Source of the DNA: Oscillospiraceae bacterium
Lineage (GTDB): Bacteria > Bacillota > Clostridia > Oscillospirales > Ruminococcaceae
Length of the DNA stretch: 34,596 nucleotides
Reading direction: 5' to 3'
NCBI GenBank assembly: GCA_017555565.1
Contig: JAFZGF010000061.1
Coordinates: forward strand, 78,431-113,026
Below, piece by piece: positions 1-6,606 of this stretch (positions are counted from its first letter, which is position 1; each line of letters opens with the position of its first letter). Both the position numbers and the translations under genes were made by a program. Under the pieces are notes generated by a model. That model searched no databases. It was not told where the DNA came from and worked only from the letters and a program-made list of their open reading frames with translations.

Positions 1-107
1 AGGGATTTCACAACATTTATCCATGAATTTTTAAAAAGGTTAAGAAATTGGAAATTAAATTTAAAAATCACAAAAATTATTAAAAATACGCTAAAAACAG
101 GCAAAAT

Positions 108-715
108 GTGAAATTTCTGCAAAAAAGGGCTGTTTTGTTAACATTTTGGCTTTTCCCGCTGTCTACATGTGAGGGGGTAAATTTTTTGAAGGTAAAAATC
201 GAGTCCATCATAGCGTGTAAGAAGACTGGTAAGAGAAAATTTTACATAATTCATAAACGCAGAAATCGTAGTTTTGTGATTTGAGCAAAGTTTTCAACCA
301 AGAGCCTGTCTAAAGTTGAAAATATTATCAATTGTGAAATTTTTGCGGAAAAAGCTGTATTTTTTAACATTTTGGCAATTCTCGCCCTCTACATATGGAG
401 GGGTAAATTTTTAGGCAAAGTGAACAGCTGGAAATGGTCGGTTTTATATAAAAGTGAGAACTTTCAATTTCTTTACCAATTTTGGCCTCTGCCAAAATCT
501 ATATATTGAAGGGCATTGAAAATTTAGACCATTGTGAAATGTATGTGATATTTTGGCTGAAATTTTAACACTTGCTATTTTTCTGACCTCTAATTTATGA
601 AGCCGAATATACCAAAAAACAGCCAGTTTGAGAAACTTTGGTGAAAGTTTTGAAAAAGTGTTTACAAAAGGGCCTGTTTTTTAGGCTTCACTTGAGGGGC
701 AAAATTTTTACCTTC
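108..715. repeat. Degenerate tandem repeat array in gene-free DNA
   Basis: Four related blocks begin near 108, 334, 534 and 657. The best preserved two (108-190 and 334-412) share the order GTGAAATTT-TGC, an AAAA-G-GCTGT stretch, TTAACATTTTGGC, then CTCTACAT-TG-GGGG and TAAATTTTT. The third and fourth are more decayed, and a partial copy of the middle section lies near 474-525. Unit spacing is about 226, 200 and 123 bp. The DNA is very AT-rich. I see no credible gene in bases 1-1000: the only long open frame (638-988) crosses repeats and palindromes and lacks a convincing ribosome site. The array lies just left of a decayed mobile element, so it may be element-derived, but its origin is unknown. 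Confidence 0.55.
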
Positions 716-846
716 ACAAAACAATTGAATAGCGTCCTGAATGATATGATACTGTGCATTGCGGCATGGGCAGCGGAAGCTGTGCGAACAATACGTCGGG
801 CAAGGTGCTGCCGGGCAGGAACTTTTCAGGGTAAGAACGCAAAAAG

Positions 847-954
847 TGTGCCAAAATCAGCTTGTTTTGGCACAAAAAGATGGTTGAAAGGTAAGCTGGC
901 GCCAAAAACATATGTTTTTGGCACACTGTCAATTCTGCAAATCGAAAATTTGCA
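847..954. repeat. Cluster of three palindromes
   Basis: Three hairpin-forming sequences lie within 110 bp. The first has a 10-bp stem, TGTGCCAAAA at 847-856 and its complement at 865-874. The second is a perfect 22-bp palindrome at 901-922 centred on CATATG and again built on GCCAAAAA/TTTTTGGC. The third has a 7-bp stem, TGCAAAT at 936-942 and its complement at 948-954. The first two share the GCCAAAA motif. No T-tract follows either of them, so they are not typical terminators. They could be protein binding sites or the end of a mobile element. Confidence 0.5.
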
Positions 955-1010
955 CCTTCGCAAAATAATTCTGTTTTCGATATATTAAAAGCAAAGAAAG
1001 GATGATGAAA

Positions 1011-1091
1011 ATGAAACTGCTTAAGAAAATAGGATTTTTGATGTTGATATCCTGGTACATAGGGAAATATTACAGTGGAGGTATATTATGA
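1011..1091 (+). CDS. Small membrane-like peptide coupled to tnpV
   Basis: A 26-residue ORF begins MKLLKKIGFLML and continues through a short hydrophobic stretch with tryptophan and tyrosine. An AGGA ribosome site at 999-1002 sits about 8 nt before the ATG at 1011; in-frame ATGs at 1002 and 1005 are too close to it. The TGA stop at 1089-1091 overlaps the ATG of the next gene at 1088 in an ATGA arrangement, the usual sign of translational coupling. Two lysine-rich residues followed by hydrophobic ones suggest a membrane-associated peptide. I do not recognise a family. It could be a leader that only serves to control tnpV translation, or the trimmed end of an older gene. Confidence 0.4.
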   Translation: MKLLKKIGFLMLISWYIGKYYSGGIL

Positions 1092-1432
1092 AACTTGAAT
1101 ACAGAAAATGTAGCGATTATCTGATACCGAATTTTGAACTGCCACCAAAACCTGCTATCGGTAAATATGGAAAAATGAGACACAGCTATTTGCGAAAGCA
1201 CAAGGAGCCATTGTTTACCGCTTTGATGCTGCAGGACAAACTGAACAGCCATCTTGAAGAAATTGATAAGTCAGCACAGGAAATGTATGACTGTTTGATT
1301 AACAAGCTGAAAGAACAGTATGGTATAACCGAGAAACTGAAAGCAGAAAACCAGCTGGTATGGGTTCATATGATGAACGAAATACATCAGATAGCTGAAG
1401 ATATTGTACTTACCGAATTGATTTACATCTGA
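1088..1432 (+). CDS. TnpV-like transposon-encoded protein
   Basis: This 114-residue protein resembles the TnpV family found on Tn4451-like and other mobilizable elements of Clostridia. Recognisable landmarks are DYLIPNFELPP (residues 10-20), GKYGKMRHSYLRKHK (25-39), an acidic helix around LNSHLEEIDKSA (52-63), then LIYI at the end. It is small, soluble and predicted mostly helical. The function of TnpV is not established. A GGAGG ribosome site at 1077-1081 precedes the ATG, which overlaps the stop of the small upstream ORF. A terminator follows at once. The gene looks intact although the rest of the element is broken. Confidence 0.7.
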   Translation: MKLEYRKCSDYLIPNFELPPKPAIGKYGKMRHSYLRKHKEPLFTALMLQDKLNSHLEEIDKSAQEMYDCLINKLKEQYGITEKLKAENQLVWVHMMNEIHQIAEDIVLTELIYI

Positions 1433-1446
1433 AGAAAAGATTACAG

Positions 1447-1472
1447 GCACCTCTTTGAGGTGCTTTTTCTTT
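1447..1472 (+). terminator. Intrinsic terminator after tnpV
   Basis: A 7-bp stem (GCACCTC at 1447-1453 with its complement at 1457-1463, three-base loop) is followed by a T-rich tract. Confidence 0.7.
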
Positions 1473-1496
1473 TACCCGAAATAAGAATATGACATT

Positions 1497-1545
1497 GCTG
1501 TGGCAAGCAACGAATTGTGTCCCCAATTCAGCTTGTCAGGGCACC
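1497..1545. other. Candidate origin of transfer (oriT)
   Basis: An inverted repeat (GAATTG at 1512-1517 and CAATTC at 1524-1529, six-base spacer TGTCCC) lies directly upstream of the mobC-like gene and the relaxase start. oriT regions of mobilizable elements usually sit in this place and often show a short AATTG/CAATT inverted repeat next to the nick site. This call rests on position and symmetry only. Confidence 0.3.
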
Positions 1546-1569
1546 TGAAACCGTATGAAAGGAGAAAAT

Positions 1570-1890
1570 ATGGAAAGAAAACACGAAATAAAAATCCGAC
1601 TGTCCAAGGAAGAACTGGACAGTCTCAACCTGAAGGTTGCAAAAACCAATTTATCACGAGAGGAGTTTTGCCGACTGTGCTTTAAGGAAGTTGCAATCAA
1701 GGCAAAACCCAGCGATGACACCCACCGACTGATTTATGAAATAAGGAAAATCGGTGGCAATATCAATGCCCTTGTAGTAAGGGCACACATTTATAAATCT
1801 GTTGATACTGATGCTATGCGATATGAACTTTACAACCTGCATAATCTGGAAAAGCAGGTGGCAAAGCATTACTCCAACAAAAAGGGTTAG
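1570..1890 (+). CDS. MobC-like relaxosome accessory protein
   Basis: A 106-residue basic protein that fits the plasmid mobilization MobC family. These proteins bind oriT and help the relaxase to open the strands. An N-terminal ribbon-helix-helix-like stretch (EIKIRLSKEELDSL, about residues 6-19) is followed by helices and the family landmark IGGNINALV (about 59-67). The start at 1570 is chosen because AAAGGAG at 1558-1564 lies 5 nt before it; an upstream ATG at 1555 sits before this ribosome site. Four bases after its stop the remnant of a relaxase begins, the usual mobC-relaxase order. Without a relaxase in cis it could only act in trans. Confidence 0.65.
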   Translation: MERKHEIKIRLSKEELDSLNLKVAKTNLSREEFCRLCFKEVAIKAKPSDDTHRLIYEIRKIGGNINALVVRAHIYKSVDTDAMRYELYNLHNLEKQVAKHYSNKKG

Positions 1891-1893
1891 TCT

Positions 1894-1950
1894 ATGGCTG
1901 TAACATCAATATGGCCAATCAAAGGCCGAGTGGATTTTTCAAAGCGATAA
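1894..1950 (+). pseudogene. Relaxase, 5-prime fragment only
   Basis: The ATG at 1894 opens MAVTSIWPIKGRVD, which matches the N-terminus typical of relaxases of mobilizable elements in Clostridia (MAVT.IWPIKG.V). The similarity ends after about 14 residues and the frame stops at 1948-1950. The sequence beyond 1934 reads instead as a tyrosine integrase in another frame, so the gene was cut by a deletion. None of the catalytic part (tyrosine and histidine triad) remains. Confidence 0.7.
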
Positions 1951-2230
1951 TGAAAACTATGATTATCGCTTAAGTTATAATTCAGCAAACAATAAACTTC
2001 GTAAATTATGTACAAGAATGGATTCTGTAAACAAGAGTCCTCATAAATTGAGAAAAACTTGCCTGTCTGCATTGTTGGATAGCCCTGATATAAACAACAG
2101 AACTGTGTAGCGTTTTGCAGGTCATAGTGATATCACAACAACACTCAGATACTACGACTTCGACAGAAGTTCAAAAGAAGAACAGGCCAGAGCAATCAAC
2201 GAAGCTCTGGCACTGAAATATGAAGAATAA
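1937..2230 (+). pseudogene. Tyrosine integrase, C-terminal fragment
   Basis: Read in the frame ending at the TAA of 2228-2230, this stretch encodes the last part of a phage/ICE-type tyrosine recombinase catalytic domain. Visible are the HKLRKT box (H-x-L-R arginine), RFAGHSDITTTLRYYDF with the conserved histidine and the nucleophile tyrosine, and a charged tail. An in-frame TAG at 2108-2110 stands where related integrases have CAG (Gln) before RFAGH, a single-base nonsense change. The N-terminal DNA-binding domains and first catalytic arginine are absent. The fragment is fused to the relaxase start near 1934-1940. No start codon with a ribosome site serves it. Confidence 0.8.
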
Positions 2231-2240
2231 CCATAACAAT

Positions 2241-2277
2241 AAGAAAACCTCTACCTTTTTATGATAGAGGTTTTCTT
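2241..2277. terminator. Bidirectional terminator
   Basis: A 13-bp perfect stem (AAGAAAACCTCTA at 2241-2253 with its complement at 2265-2277) separates the integrase remnant from the convergent DUF1294 gene; A- and T-rich flanks serve both strands. Confidence 0.75.
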
Positions 2278-2282
2278 ATTAT

Positions 2283-2873
2283 TTATTTCCAAGCAGCATT
2301 CATTATGTAAAACAATAAAACAGTTTGCATTAAAATAATCAATGGAATGCCAACTGTGAAATAATCTACTCGAGTTTTATGTCTCAACACATACATTGCT
2401 GCTAATGCCCCAAAAGAGCCTCCGGCAAATGCCAATCCCAGTAGTGTAATTACACGTATTCGAGAGCGCCTTTCAATTGCGGCAATTTTATCTACAGCAA
2501 AAGCCGCAAATGTAACAAAATTAATTATTACCAAATATACTATAAGTAATTTATGTCTTGAGAAGAAATCCCAAAAAGCAAATGTCAAATCAGTGGCTAT
2601 ATATCCTTTTATAATAAGCAATAGAATAAATTGTATGATAAACACGCAGACAACAAAGACTCTGGACATCATATATTCTTTTGAAGGTTTTCTATCAATT
2701 AGAATGATTGCCAGTAAAATTCCTGCCGAACCACCAATGATAGATACTATTGTAAGTATATTATCAACTTGCTTATCTGCAGTGTATGTATAAAGTAAAG
2801 TGTTTATTACAAACAAAACAAAACCTATTATGTTTATAGCAATCAAATAATAGTCAAAGTAGTTTAAAATCAT
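2283..2873 (-). CDS. Tandem DUF1294 membrane protein
   Basis: A 196-residue integral membrane protein. The C-terminal half (about 110-182) is a clear DUF1294 domain: NFVTFAAFAVDKIAA, then GLAFAGGSFGALAAMY, then RHKTR and GIPLI. The N-terminal half (about 10-80) repeats the same plan in decayed form: INIIGFVLFVINTL, then SIIGGSAGILLAI with RKPSKEY in place of RHKTR. The usual DUF1294 protein is about 90 residues, so this looks like an internal duplication. The function of DUF1294 is unknown. A GGAGA ribosome site lies upstream of the ATG at 2873. It probably shares the promoter of the 66-aa gene 36 bp upstream. Confidence 0.75.
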   Translation of the reverse strand: MILNYFDYYLIAINIIGFVLFVINTLLYTYTADKQVDNILTIVSIIGGSAGILLAIILIDRKPSKEYMMSRVFVVCVFIIQFILLLIIKGYIATDLTFAFWDFFSRHKLLIVYLVIINFVTFAAFAVDKIAAIERRSRIRVITLLGLAFAGGSFGALAAMYVLRHKTRVDYFTVGIPLIILMQTVLLFYIMNAAWK

Positions 2874-2909
2874 AATATATCTCCATAGAATAATTATCGA
2901 ACATATTTA

Positions 2910-3110
2910 TTAATCAAACTCAACAACTATATAGGCACATATATCACCGGTATAATAGCTACTATAATCATTTTCATTTTTTCCGCCAGCATAACCAAAC
3001 GCAACGATAGGCTCGCCTATTGTATGAATTTGTTTCACTCTGCCACCTTTTTCAAGCCGTGCATTTACTTTTTCTAAATCACCATTTACAACCCAAAATA
3101 TTTTTTCCAT
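2910..3110 (-). CDS. 66-aa protein of unknown function
   Basis: A small protein (MEKIFWVVNGDLEKVN...) with an AAAGGAG ribosome site about 8 nt before its start at 3110 and a consensus-like promoter upstream. It ends in AYIVVEFD and looks like a compact alpha/beta fold: two beta stretches (IFWVV, CAYIVVEF), one helix rich in Lys and Glu, and a glycine-rich loop (GYAGGKNEND). Similar short proteins are, as I recall, often annotated as hypothetical in Clostridia. I assign no function. It lies first in an apparent two-gene unit with the DUF1294 gene. Confidence 0.65.
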   Translation of the reverse strand: MEKIFWVVNGDLEKVNARLEKGGRVKQIHTIGEPIVAFGYAGGKNENDYSSYYTGDICAYIVVEFD

Positions 3111-3137
3111 AAAGACACTCCTTTAGCATATATTAAT

Positions 3138-3166
3138 ATTATAACATTTAAGAGCCTGTATTACAA
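3138..3166 (-). promoter_or_regulatory. Sigma-A-type promoter for the 66-aa and DUF1294 genes
   Basis: On the minus strand TTGTAA (3166-3161) and TATAAT (3143-3138) are separated by 17 bp. A TG pair with one spacer base precedes the -10 box. The promoter lies 28 bp upstream of the start at 3110. Confidence 0.65.
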
Positions 3167-3181
3167 ATAAGAACAAAAAAA

Positions 3182-3207
3182 GCCTCTGTTCATTTAAGAA
3201 CAGGGGC
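3182..3207 (-). terminator. Intrinsic terminator of module A
   Basis: A 10-bp stem (3182-3191 with 3198-3207, one G-T pair, six-base loop) is followed on the minus strand by seven T. AT-rich DNA on the other side could also serve the plus strand, but no plus-strand gene precedes it. Confidence 0.7.
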
Positions 3208-3333
3208 ATATTTTTATTTTATCTGTGGGAGGGAATTTCACCCTCTACCGATAGGCGCAAGCCACACCTATATGTAATTGTGCCGATAATGTCGAATAAT
3301 TAAATTGAAAAGAGTATATAAAAACCGTACCAA
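3182..3333 (-). repeat. Structured module, copy A (foldable block plus terminator)
   Basis: On the minus strand the module begins with TTGGTACG (3333-3326). About 60 bp later comes a conserved block (about 3276-3225) that includes GGGTGAAATTCCCT, and then an intrinsic terminator (stem 3207-3198/3191-3182, T-tract to 3174). A second copy lies at 6294-6456. The 15 bases at 3230-3244 are identical to 6351-6365. The block can fold as two hairpins, GGC-TTGC-GCC and GAGGG-TGAAATT-CCCTC, inside an outer stem GTG(T)GG/CCCAC. Copy B keeps this fold with different paired bases. It may be a small RNA gene, or the end of an island inserted by recombination. Confidence 0.5.
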
Positions 3334-3387
3334 ACGCGCCGAACTAATATAGGGGGTGGGACTCTGTTTTTATTTTAAATGTTTTTG

Positions 3388-3396
3388 TGGTATAAT
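3388..3396 (+). promoter_or_regulatory. Extended -10 promoter of the two-gene island
   Basis: TGGTATAAT is a perfect -10 hexamer (3391-3396) with an extended TG motif, 28 bp before the start codon at 3425. The -35 region is poor, as extended -10 promoters allow. Confidence 0.6.
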
Positions 3397-3424
3397 ATAT
3401 TTAAGAAATTTGGAAGGTGAATAT

Positions 3425-4942
3425 ATGTCTGAAGAAAAAAGCACAGCAAGGTTGATCGAAGAAATGGAATTATCAGTTCGTGCATACAATTGTTTGAAGC
3501 GAGCTGGAGTGCAAACAGTGGAGGATTTATTTTCCTTATTGGATAAAGGGCTATCCGAAATATCTAAATCTGTACGAAATCTCGGAAGGATGTCTTTAGA
3601 AGAAATTCTAATAAAAGCTAATGGACTCGGATATAACTCAGCACAATTTATTAAACGAGAAATAAAAGCTCAAGGGCTTACAGAATATTATACCTTGTCA
3701 AGTGAAGAATTATTTAAACGACTTATTGAAAGAAGAAATTTACCTTCTTTCGATAAAGAAAAGTCCCACGTAGGAAACTTCCTTTCTGACATAGAGAATT
3801 TGCCCCAGCCTCTTTTGCGCTTTCTGAATAAAGATGGAATCTTTACTATGGAAGAGTTGTTGGAAAGATATAAATCTTTGACAGATATACCAAAACAAAG
3901 ACGGCTTCGACGAGAGTTATTAATCTTTTTAGATAAAGAAGGAATTCGCTTCCCAGAATGCACAAAAGAAGAATATCCGGATATAAATGTTTTTATCTCA
4001 AAAGAACGTGCTAAATCTTTTCATATAGGAAATTTAGAATCTGAAGAGACAGATGATGAATTATCTGAAGCTATAGATATTCTTTTACAGAATGATTATA
4101 AATATGTCGCAAGTATCTTTGCTTTGTCAGTAGAAGATATGAAAAAAATGCTCTCTACACGACAAATTGTTAAGTTATTCATGGCGCTGGATAATAATGG
4201 CTTTGCGGTATATTCCTATCCATTCATTAGCCTTAGTGAATACATAAAGTGTGAAATCGTGCTCCCAGTAGAAGAATTTATTAGCTCAAAGGTTACATGT
4301 AGCAATTTGATAAAAAGACATTTGCCTAATGTCAATATGCTGATGAAACACACTCGCTCAGAGCTAATAAAACACAAAATTGTAGGAGAAATGGCTCTTA
4401 ACGGTATAATAGAAGACTTAAAGCAATTTAATTTATACCTAAAAGATGATGTCTACTATGAATGTTCAAGATGTAAGGTCGAATACTTAACAGAAAAAAA
4501 CACAAATATTGTTCACCATTGTGATTTATGTAAAGATAAAATAAAGAGAATAAAGAAAATAAAAGATTTTTCAATTGATATATCTGGTCCGGATTATGGT
4601 AGCTATACTGATGGAACAAAAGGGTTTACTTTATTTGCAACAATAAAAAATAATACAAATCAGCTTGAAGAAATAACCCTTCAGGAGTTTCTTGTGTTTC
4701 ACAAGAGAAGGCAATGGGCAGCACGAATGTATTTAAATGGATACAAATTTGAAAAAGGCTATATTATGCCACAATCTTCTCTTACTGTTGCAAAAATATG
4801 GTCTGGATACGAATGGATTCTTGAAAAATTAGTCGATGGTGATTACATAAGCATTTATTTAAGAACCAAAGAATACTCTTGTTCTTACAGATTTGTAATG
4901 AGAGATTCTAAATTTGTAATCGATGACTATTTCAAACACTAA
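3425..4942 (+). CDS. Protein with RNA polymerase alpha-CTD-like domain, HhH segments and zinc knuckle
   Basis: A 505-residue protein of unknown function. Residues 12-70 closely resemble the C-terminal domain of the RNA polymerase alpha subunit: LSVRAYNCLKRAG, then RNLGRMSLEE. Positions matching E. coli R265, N268, C269, G296 and S299, which contact UP-element DNA, are kept (R19, N22, C23, G54, S57), but the K298 position is M56. Weaker helix-hairpin-helix-like segments follow at about 127-176, 213-262 and 290-336. C347/C350 and C366/C369 form a zinc knuckle, and the tail (about 381-505) looks beta-rich. I chose the ATG at 3425 because GGAAGGTG lies just before it; an in-frame ATG at 3356 overlaps the promoter. 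The DNA is much more AT-rich than the chromosomal genes, which suggests transfer. It probably forms an operon with the next gene. Confidence 0.75.
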   Translation: MSEEKSTARLIEEMELSVRAYNCLKRAGVQTVEDLFSLLDKGLSEISKSVRNLGRMSLEEILIKANGLGYNSAQFIKREIKAQGLTEYYTLSSEELFKRLIERRNLPSFDKEKSHVGNFLSDIENLPQPLLRFLNKDGIFTMEELLERYKSLTDIPKQRRLRRELLIFLDKEGIRFPECTKEEYPDINVFISKERAKSFHIGNLESEETDDELSEAIDILLQNDYKYVASIFALSVEDMKKMLSTRQIVKLFMALDNNGFAVYSYPFISLSEYIKCEIVLPVEEFISSKVTCSNLIKRHLPNVNMLMKHTRSELIKHKIVGEMALNGIIEDLKQFNLYLKDDVYYECSRCKVEYLTEKNTNIVHHCDLCKDKIKRIKKIKDFSIDISGPDYGSYTDGTKGFTLFATIKNNTNQLEEITLQEFLVFHKRRQWAARMYLNGYKFEKGYIMPQSSLTVAKIWSGYEWILEKLVDGDYISIYLRTKEYSCSYRFVMRDSKFVIDDYFKH

Positions 4943-4975
4943 ATACATCACAAATAAATAAGTGAGCTATACGAT

Positions 4976-5026
4976 ATGGAACCGACATCTAACTTCACCA
5001 TTACAGATATGATTTTATTGGAGTAA
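4976..5026 (+). CDS. Possible 16-aa leader peptide
   Basis: In the 86-bp gap between the two island genes a 16-codon frame (MEPTSNFTITDMILLE) ends two bases before the ATG of the downstream gene, and its last codons contain that gene's GGAG ribosome site. The spacing would suit translational coupling. Its own ribosome site is weak (AGTGAG), so this may be chance. Confidence 0.2.
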   Translation: MEPTSNFTITDMILLE

Positions 5027-5028
5027 TT

Positions 5029-6210
5029 ATGGATAATAACGAATTAAAGATTGAATTTAATGATGAAGTTTTTCGCAACGTTTATGAAGAGTGCCTTAAT
5101 GCAAGAATGACTGGCTGGACATTAAATTTATCAGCATTCACAGATTCGCTACTTAAGGCTATCGAATCTATGGCTGATGATAATTTGACAAAAAATGAAT
5201 TAATCGAGTTGGATTCCGAGCGTCCAAAAGAATTATCAAAAGAAGAAAAAATAATTTCAGCTACAAAGAAAGCACATGATTTATCACTGTATCATTCCCG
5301 AAAGTGTTATATTAGAGATAAATACATCTATGGCCTACATAGTTTTTCTTATGAAGAATTCCTTTATTACATTTTCTGGCGAACAAAACTTAGAGAGAAT
5401 AAAATAATCGATACTCCTAATTCTTTTCTTGCAATGTTTCTTGTTGAAATAGTAAACTTTATCGAATATGATAACTATAAAGACTGTTTGGATAAGTTAC
5501 TTTTTCTAAAACATTATTTTAGTAGTGATGGACATAAACTAAGCATGATAAATACTGCGATAGAAGAGTTTATACTTTTGTATGGTTCAGCGAATGATTA
5601 CTCCAACAATTGTAACGCTAGTAAATTTGATTATATTTTTGAAGCAGATGAGATAATCAGTCGAACTCATTCGGACACATATAATTTTATATTTCAACAC
5701 ACTTCCGGCTCATTTAAGCAATTGTCGTTTTATAAAAAGTATAAAAATTGTATTGGTGATGATTTTGGTTCATTCTTTTATAATATTGTCGACTATTTTA
5801 ATAGCTGGGGCATAGACATTTTAAAACTATGGTTTGGGCAAAAAACACTTGAATGCCCTATTGATTTTTCGTATATAAAATACAAGTTTCAAGAAAAAAT
5901 AAAAGAAAAAAATATAATTTATCGTGACAATATAATATATTCAGTTTCTAGATTGTCACAAAATCATATATCACTAAATGCGCAGGATGAAGATTTAAAA
6001 AGTGGTCAATGTGTTTTTTTTAGAGGTTATTTAATGCGATATCCTTTAAGATTGTATGAAAATATAAAAAGGAAAGAGCTCGGTCTTAGGGAGATAAACG
6101 CCGAAAGTGCACTAGATGATATTGCATATATGTCAGAGAAGTCACATATATTAACACAAATACTTAGCATTTATCTATCAGATGATTTTCAAAAAAATTT
6201 TGTTAAGTAA
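5029..6210 (+). CDS. TerB_N-like protein, second gene of the island
   Basis: A 393-residue soluble protein with no signal peptide or membrane segment. Residues about 88-186 resemble the TerB_N domain: YYIFWRTKLRENK (113-125; the family has YFYWR..R.G), then SFLAMFLVEIVNFIEYD (132-148; the family has SYLfLYiYELIN) and a helix ending FILLYG. TerB_N proteins are linked to tellurite-type stress and phage-defence gene neighbourhoods. The rest is helical, rich in Phe, Tyr and Lys, and not recognised. GGAG sits 6 nt before the ATG. The gene follows the alpha-CTD-like gene after 86 bp on the same strand with no terminator between, so both are probably one transcript. The TerB_N match is by eye and moderate. 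Confidence 0.6.
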   Translation: MDNNELKIEFNDEVFRNVYEECLNARMTGWTLNLSAFTDSLLKAIESMADDNLTKNELIELDSERPKELSKEEKIISATKKAHDLSLYHSRKCYIRDKYIYGLHSFSYEEFLYYIFWRTKLRENKIIDTPNSFLAMFLVEIVNFIEYDNYKDCLDKLLFLKHYFSSDGHKLSMINTAIEEFILLYGSANDYSNNCNASKFDYIFEADEIISRTHSDTYNFIFQHTSGSFKQLSFYKKYKNCIGDDFGSFFYNIVDYFNSWGIDILKLWFGQKTLECPIDFSYIKYKFQEKIKEKNIIYRDNIIYSVSRLSQNHISLNAQDEDLKSGQCVFFRGYLMRYPLRLYENIKRKELGLREINAESALDDIAYMSEKSHILTQILSIYLSDDFQKNFVK

Positions 6211-6293
6211 GAAGCAACTAATTAAAATTATCTGTCAGTTACAAAATTTAATTTTGTTAAAATACTATAGTACAAGAAATATTTTAGCATAAA

Positions 6294-6329
6294 ATCAAAG
6301 CCCTTGTCGATTACGACAAGGGCTTTGAT
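6294..6329. terminator. Strong bidirectional hairpin terminator
   Basis: A perfect 16-bp stem (6294-6309 with 6314-6329) and four-base loop. It ends the plus-strand island transcript and any minus-strand transcript of module B. Confidence 0.75.
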
Positions 6330-6456
6330 GTTTATAAAATGTGGGAGGGGAGGGAATTTCACCCTATGCTGATAGCCACGAGCCGCTCCCATGTATATAA
6401 AAGTCTTATTTCACGCTCAAAATTACACTTTTACACATTCGTACCAATCGTACCAA
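6294..6456 (-). repeat. Structured module, copy B, next to tRNA-Leu
   Basis: This is the second copy of the module at 3182-3333, in the same orientation. On the minus strand it starts with two TTGGTACG-like units (6456-6449 and 6447-6440). After about 60 bp comes a block (about 6393-6340) containing GGGTGAAATTCCCT, then a 16-bp terminator stem. Its outer stem is GGGAG/CTCCC, where copy A has GTG(T)GG/CCCAC, so the pairing is kept although the bases differ. It lies between the end of the island and tRNA-Leu(CAG), a common integration target. Confidence 0.5.
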
Positions 6457-6470
6457 CGTAAAAAAAGAAA

Positions 6471-6492
6471 AAAGCCCGAAAAATCGGGCTTT
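6471..6492 (-). terminator. Terminator of tRNA-Leu
   Basis: A 9-bp stem (AAAGCCCGA at 6471-6479 with its complement at 6484-6492), followed on the minus strand by a T-rich tract, directly downstream of the tRNA. Confidence 0.8.
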
Positions 6493-6495
6493 TCC

Positions 6496-6582
6496 TGGTG
6501 CGGATGAAGGGACTTGAACCCACACAGTATTGCTACCACTAGAACCTGAATCTAGCGCGTCTGCCTATTCCGCCACATCCGC
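6496..6582 (-). tRNA. tRNA-Leu (anticodon CAG)
   Basis: An 87-nt tRNA on the minus strand. The acceptor stem GCGGATG/CATCCGC closes the molecule, and the 3-prime ACCA is encoded (6499-6496). The anticodon stem CTAGA/TCTAG encloses the loop TTCAGGT, giving anticodon CAG, which reads CUG leucine codons. CUG is heavily used in the chromosomal genes of this window. The long variable arm is typical of class II leucine tRNAs, and GGTTCAAGTCC marks the T arm. It has its own strong promoter and terminator. The 3-prime side faces the accessory island. Confidence 0.95.
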
Positions 6583-6606
6583 ATATGTAATTTTTAATGC
6601 TTGATT

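Follow-up and report, generated by a model that had tools for sequence, protein, structure and literature searches.

Shango, described as a defence system, combines an ATPase and a helicase with a TerB-like protein; it protects against several phages, and its occurrence in a defence hot spot has been reported (PMC10250203). For Bunzi, too, TerB is listed (PMC10952713), and TerB has been mentioned as a possible signal sensor (PMC7824862). Among mobile elements, cis-mobilizable elements (CIMEs) are presented as keeping both attachment (att) sites, attL and attR, after the loss of their genes for integration and transfer (PMC5704250). In this study, we analyzed a gene pair, encoding proteins of 505 amino acids (aa; gene A) and 393 aa (gene B), beside a tRNA-Leu(CAG) gene of an Oscillospiraceae bacterium. 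The window, i.e., the whole stretch of 34,596 nucleotides (nt) analyzed, corresponds to positions 78431-113026 of the 113-kb contig C41 (JAFZGF010000061.1) in the draft genome G000 (GCA_017555565.1; 2.08 Mb, 85 contigs). The pair makes up the final cargo of a far larger AT-rich island that ends at the tRNA gene, and the sequence modules on either side of it do not delimit a two-gene island. Gene B appears to be a remote relative of the Shango protein SngA, and gene A carries a copy of the C-terminal domain of the RNA polymerase alpha subunit (alpha-CTD).

The features are listed below in window coordinates, with the strand where one was assigned.

1..6495, no strand: right-hand part of the composite AT-rich genomic island; the whole runs from C41:45142 (39.8 kb) or from about C41:50279 (34.6 kb) to C41:84925
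3182..3207, no strand: hairpin terminator of the left module (hairpin scan)
3227..3276, no strand: conserved core of the left module, GGGAGGGAATTTCACCCT-N5-GATAG..., 78% identical to 6348-6397 over 50 nt
3326..3340, plus strand: presumably decayed arm pair, CGTACC at 3326-3331 and CGCGCC at 3335-3340, with the 9-bp spacing of the intact pair
3388..3396, plus strand: extended -10 element TGGTATAAT before gene A, read in the sequence (TG-G-TATAAT) as a consensus match only
3425..4942, plus strand: gene A, 505 aa, with the alpha-CTD (residues 3-62/72), a CX2C-X15-CX2C zinc-ribbon-type motif (residues 347-369), and middle and C-terminal parts without family match
5029..6210, plus strand: gene B, 393 aa, with a TerB_N-like core (about residues 81-220) and no TerB_C
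6294..6329, no strand: 16-pair hairpin terminator at the start of the right module (hairpin scan)
6348..6397, no strand: conserved core of the right module (alignment), present also in G012, L109, and G010
6440..6454, plus strand: paired CGTACC repeats (6440-6445 and 6449-6454), probable integrase arm sites at the right end of the island
6468..6495, minus strand: terminator hairpin separating the module from the tRNA gene (hairpin scan)
6496..6518, plus strand: att core formed by the 3' end of tRNA-Leu, recurring at C41:45142 and 37348
6496..6582, minus strand: tRNA-Leu(CAG), the presumed integration target (tRNA call; Rfam tRNA match at 6499-6582)

The original prediction described a mobile two-gene unit bounded by two copies of a ~150-bp module. 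This view was not supported: repeats of the tRNA 3' end and paired CGTACC repeats set the junctions tens of kilobases leftward, and the left module has neither a recognizable att core nor an intact arm pair beside gene A. Further copies of the 23-mer that forms the tRNA 3' end lie on the same strand at C41:45142 (22 of 23 positions identical) and C41:37348 (21 of 23); the next best match reaches 16, and the maximum in 60 Markov shuffles of the left 84.9 kb of the contig was 18. Through these copies, the tRNA 3' end is directly repeated at the far junction, a feature by which tRNA-integrated genomic islands are recognized. The 113-kb contig has three sets of paired CGTACC repeats (45224, 50349, and 84870), all at island ends; none occurred in 60 shuffles. 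The single CGTACC was found 11 times on that strand of C41, eight times at ends or modules (37440, 45224, 45235, 50349, 50360, 81756, 84870, and 84879) and three times elsewhere. A looser form of the pair, searched for in 0.9 Mb of overlapping stretches centred on such sites, was found at ends and modules and otherwise as the CGTACT form alone in two overlapping loci. Additionally, the left-end stretches following the copies at C41:45142 and 37348 share 87% identity over 161 bp and are partly repeated at C41:50273 (78% over 95 bp) and at 50211. The segment C41:50211-50402 holds two tandem, partly decayed island left ends, in one of which the CGTACC pair is intact.

We interpret the tRNA 3'-end repeats and CGTACC pairs as traces left by units that integrated at this end of the tRNA gene, the CGTACC repeats being likely integrase arm sites, and we consider the presence of a composite island at the 3' end of tRNA-Leu(CAG) highly probable. 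Such an island would grow by repeated site-specific integration at this 3' end and would be mobilized by an integrase acting from elsewhere. The gene pair would then be the tRNA-proximal cargo of a composite island without recognizable integrase in an Oscillospiraceae-type gut bacterium. The island may be comparable to CIMEs and tandem accretion at tRNA genes in that it keeps att repeats and tandem units at the tRNA 3' end with no integrase found. No partner element with a matching integrase was found.

Both open reading frames (ORFs) were verified on the same strand, as predicted. The G+C content is 32.2% in gene A (26.1% at third codon positions, GC3) and 28.9% in gene B (GC3 23.6%), compared with 43.7-47.4% in nine chromosomal genes measured. 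The claimed AT-richness of the pair was upheld by this comparison, but it is not peculiar to the pair: in 2-kb bins, the G+C content of C41 at 46-84 kb, including most of window positions 1-6495, is 28-36%, and the two bins right of the tRNA gene have 43-44%. Because low G+C extends through C41 46-84 kb, the pair is not a separate island by composition. Further left, the content is about 42% at 38-44 kb and 34-38% at 28-38 kb; therefore, composition alone cannot fix the left limit of the island.

The two modules lie in the same orientation and share the 50-nt core (BLAST E 1e-4 within the genome), a hairpin before the core, and CGTACC-type repeats after it. Their likeness is partial: it exceeds chance and falls short of the clean 150-bp repeat that had been proposed, as judged by alignment. 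We suggest that the modules would be right ends of one element family, made up of a terminator hairpin, the 50-nt core, and paired CGTACC. Accordingly, we name the right module (6294-6495) as the right end of the island, and the left module (3182-3340) is probably a decayed older right end. The pair cannot be demonstrated as a unit of its own, because the DNA beside gene A contains no recognizable att core or left end. The strong terminator expected after gene B and the tRNA-Leu(CAG) gene expected beside the second module were both found. On the minus strand, where the module might encode a structured small RNA, both copies fold better than shuffled sequences (z -3.7 and -5.8, terminator hairpins included), but among five module copies only 1 of 15 pairs showed a double compensatory change, and no Rfam family reached its gathering score in the modules.

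Gene B provides the link to described defence systems. The PADLOC model of SngA matches its residues 81-167 (7.3e-5), and hhalign against the SngA alignment, built from five order-level matches, gave a probability of 91% (E 1e-6) over residues 104-222. No Pfam (including TerB_N), NCBIfam, or PHROG family matched gene B. One search matched 5 of 197 other genomes, and a wider search matched 10 of 393 others of the order, including those five, in open frames of 547-683 residues. PADLOC, run on seven of these ten matches (excluding L013, L014, and L223), identified all seven as SngA. All three SngA homologues scanned had both TerB_N and TerB_C with full SngA matches, and SngB followed SngA in all five loci examined. 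Gene B had no match at E 0.001 in any of 15 same-genus relatives (completeness 76-100%), and none in IMG/VR, genome contigs, plasmids, or phages (tblastn for the latter two), scans that detect close relatives only.

TerB_C is absent from gene B by both Pfam and alignment, and neither the SngB ATPase nor the SngC helicase stands beside it, its neighbours being gene A and then the module and the tRNA gene. By this remote similarity, gene B is classified as a shorter relative of the N-terminal part of SngA without TerB_C, SngB, or SngC. The pair thus appears to share a TerB_N-like core with Shango, whereas it lacks TerB_C, the ATPase, and the helicase and has a partner with an alpha-CTD instead; because gene B's partner is of another kind, the pair is not Shango. 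Gene B also appears to have a TerB-family-related domain in common with Ter-domain stress systems, but no TerC, TerD, or TelA was recognized among the partly scanned neighbours of the pair.

Residues 3-62 of gene A match PF03118 (1.4e-17) and the alpha-CTDs of the PDB (5e-15), and the segments LSVR-Y-NCLKRAG and VRNLGR-SLEE are retained in the PDB alignment. Of the residues that we take to be the DNA contacts of the Escherichia coli alpha subunit, R265, N268, C269, N294, G296, S299, and E302 are kept and K298 is replaced by Met. Residues 3-72 align with the C-terminal domain of RpoA at 53-58% identity among the best 29 RpoA matches that were carried forward as loci. Gene A differs from RpoA in having four extra residues inside this domain, in lacking the alpha N-terminal domain, and in its fusion to a zinc-ribbon-type motif and to parts without family match. 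A separate RpoA-type frame of 316 residues is present in the genome, at C56. The zinc-ribbon-type motif reads CSRC-X15-CDLC, and Pfam and NCBIfam matches in its region are weak and zinc-finger-like or TFE-like. The remainder of gene A has no family match, and no nuclease or enzyme domain was recognized in it by Pfam, NCBIfam, PADLOC, or PHROG scans.

Comparison of the gene A tail with the alpha-CTD gave 2.9 bits for the best domain (reached by 4 of 500 shuffles) and 6.4 for the whole sequence (1 of 500), so that additional alpha-CTD-like repeats are hinted at, not established. When the whole of gene A was used as query, 165 of 198 genomes were matched, and the matches listed cover only the N-terminal alpha-CTD end. 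For residues 76-505, a search of 390 other genomes of the class gave no relative, save one match on RpoA itself, which in this class-wide search touched residues 277-347. Likewise, no relative of residues 76-505 was found among 397 other genomes of the phylum, in IMG/VR, or by tblastn in plasmids and phages, at a sensitivity for close relatives only in the last three collections.

Genes A and B are 86 nt apart, and the sole terminator-like match between the promoter-like element and gene B is a 7-pair hairpin inside gene A. The single promoter named for the pair could not be singled out: a promoter scan of 3100-6600 on both strands returned 26 sites, with a shuffle mean of 17.3. Joint action of the two genes seems moderately likely. 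In the mechanism that we propose, gene A would use its alpha-CTD copy and zinc ribbon to dock on promoter-like, AT-rich DNA or on factors that normally bind the alpha-CTD of the polymerase. Gene B, a TerB_N protein as is the first Shango subunit, would serve as sensor or scaffold, so that the docking sets off an inhibitory response to invaders. The domains in this scheme are read from the proteins themselves (that of gene B by remote similarity), and we infer the joint action, the trigger, and the output. A defence role may be offered tentatively, as somewhat short of an even chance, and the reading as a whole, an orphan two-gene defence or stress cargo in a composite island, stands in our view at an even balance. 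The proposed defence or stress function of the cargo is kept to this extent, its defence flavour coming from the SngA-like, TerB_N-like core of gene B and from the defence-type genes of the same island. A more specific version is quite unlikely: the pair would be a two-gene immune system in which the alpha-CTD of a mobile protein, its face for binding DNA and activators largely preserved, serves as a bait or docking domain to detect an invader that attacks or takes over host transcription, and the TerB_N protein stops growth or blocks the invader. No TerB_N plus alpha-CTD pair was found by our searches of the open-licence literature.

The tRNA-Leu site was expected to vary among close relatives, and this was seen. 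No module is contained in the 1.5 kb shown for G005 or in the 168 bp available beside the tRNA gene of G001; in G005, the 14 kb left of the tRNA gene has neither the module nor DNA similarity to C41. The contigs of G007 and G013 start at most 35 bases from the tRNA gene and are uninformative. In L109 (JAFSDI010000012.1), the module lies at the same tRNA-Leu gene with HD-domain and CAAX-protease-like genes, and in G012:C1 it lies beside the same tRNA-Leu gene on a contig that begins inside an HD gene of the same kind as in L109. L109, a 5.4-kb sequence filed under an alphaproteobacterial metagenome-assembled genome, contains the tRNA-Leu locus of this genus together with amidase-type genes, and its misbinning is probable. 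In G010:C2 (L102:8385-9688), a CAT-family gene lies cassette-like between two 300-bp, 96% identical, module-bearing repeats; no tRNA-Leu gene was found in 20 kb around this module pair. Between the right module of the window and that of G010, identity is 93% over 200 bp.

These modules raise the alternative, in line with the original prediction, that the pair and its right module form a small cassette moving between modules by module recombination or an unidentified recombinase. The repeat-flanked single gene of G010, the near identity of its module to the right module of the window, the different cargo beside modules in the window, in G012/L109, and in G010, and the lack of an intact left end adjoining either gene A or the CAT-family gene are all as this alternative would have it. 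The two modules of the window, however, agree at just 78% over 50 nt, no intact site lies by gene A, better-defined ends are found 34-40 kb away, and the window ends show no clear copy of the cassette-type repeat of the genus, its consensus being matched there at 24 of 38 positions (reached by 10 of 300 shuffles) and a second consensus at 20 of 32 (shuffle mean 19.1, maximum 23). Such a cassette is in our judgment unlikely. Alternatively, gene A might be a transcription regulator or anti-activator of the mobile element itself and gene B an unrelated stress protein, with no defence system involved. The retention in gene A of most residues that we take to contact DNA and activators, as well as the absence of a recognized nuclease or enzyme domain, is in keeping with a regulator, but the only detectable relatives of gene B are of the SngA type (all seven of the ten matches run in PADLOC), and the island around the pair is rich in defence-type genes; we regard this explanation as rather doubtful. 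Decay of the pair into a remnant without function, to which its single occurrence and the decayed adjoining module could point, is very improbable in view of frames open over 505 and 393 codons, a promoter-like element, and a well-conserved alpha-CTD in gene A.

Several observations weigh against our preferred reading of the pair as defence or stress cargo of a composite island. The AT-rich DNA (34-38% G+C) continues left of 37 kb, the tRNA-end part at C41:50273 is too decayed for the 23-mer test, and the CGTACC pair at C41:37348 is not intact. No clear att core or left end was found in the left module beside gene A, and the module of G010 shows that it can sit away from a tRNA gene. Searches for an integrase on C41, made with a profile and with individual queries taken from 10 integrase ORFs of the genus (some genes twice), gave no match; the eight matches of an integron-integrase model in G000, a model that also matches 14 of 14 control genomes below its cut-off, are all on contigs other than C41. 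The similarity of gene B to SngA spans about 80-120 of 393 residues, with 17-18% overall identity, and the defence neighbours amount to guilt by association. The pair occurs in one genome only, leaving the operon link without comparative support. The original prediction had named the failure to find both genes together elsewhere as grounds for refutation; in the collections searched and at the sensitivities tried, this is literally the outcome, which we read as rarity and not as disproof. G000 is one draft genome of 85 contigs, in which a join error is possible; the ordered repeats on one strand speak against one.

Nine other island proteins were scanned with PADLOC, which matched two DNA methyltransferases, PDC-S36, DdmD (E 4e-32), Upx, PDC-S01, and, weakly, Aga, with no match for two; Pfam recognized a WYL regulator and DUF3800. 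In L067:6103-13136 (C41:68102-75138), a DdmD-like helicase, an unmatched 678-aa protein, and a DUF3800 protein make up a block that adjoins a WYL regulator and perhaps represents a separate defence system. Window positions 1088-1890 contain TnpV-like and NikA/MbpA-like genes, which may be remnants of a mobilizable element inside the island.

Four further copies of the tRNA 3'-end core without a following tRNA were read in the genus: an intact CGTACC pair is present at G012:C38, CGTACG/CGTACT variants replace CGTACC at G014:C12 and G007:C55, and neither the pair nor a variant was found in the stretch shown for G012:C47. A gapped pattern of 20 fixed bases of the module copies matched three loci in genome contigs, all of this genus, and none in viral contigs. 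Among 148 genomes of the family, a sample with just one further member of the genus, only the genome of the window itself contained the exact module 18-mer. When at most two mismatches were allowed, a 17-mer of the core matched 5 of 16 genus genomes; on visual inspection, the matches in G001 and G004 were attributed to chance in coding DNA. The exact 18-mer was also present in 17 IMG/VR stretches, but without the rest of the module, and a viral occurrence of the module was rejected. In these stretches (L076-L092), a GGGAGGGAATTTCACCCTCCC-type hairpin (GGGAGGG...CCCTCCC) follows the 18-mer in 16 of 17 cases and CCCTCCA in one (by eye), probably as a common terminator.

A dispersed repeat of ~60-110 bp (...TTTGGTATAATACTGTTAGAAAAATTTGAATTTGTAGGTG) was observed in L113, L114, L115, L116, L123, L132, L136, and others of the same genus. 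It is partly palindromic in the manner of a recombination site and precedes varied genes (GNAT-, methyltransferase-, and kinase-like by eye) at many loci, several of them at contig ends; 9 of 20 scripted loci had a frame of at least 60 codons starting within the searched distance. An integron cassette array was set aside, with IntI above the TIGR02249 cut-off in none of 16 genus genomes and no convincing sites in the window.

Should the pair have a defence function, it would represent the TerB_N core of Shango detached from the ATPase and helicase and joined to a docking domain derived from RNA polymerase, and the role of TerB-family domains in defence would become testable in a smaller system. 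The island itself shows how, in uncultured gut bacteria, defence-type cargo can accumulate beside a single tRNA gene although the island has no recognizable integrase of its own.

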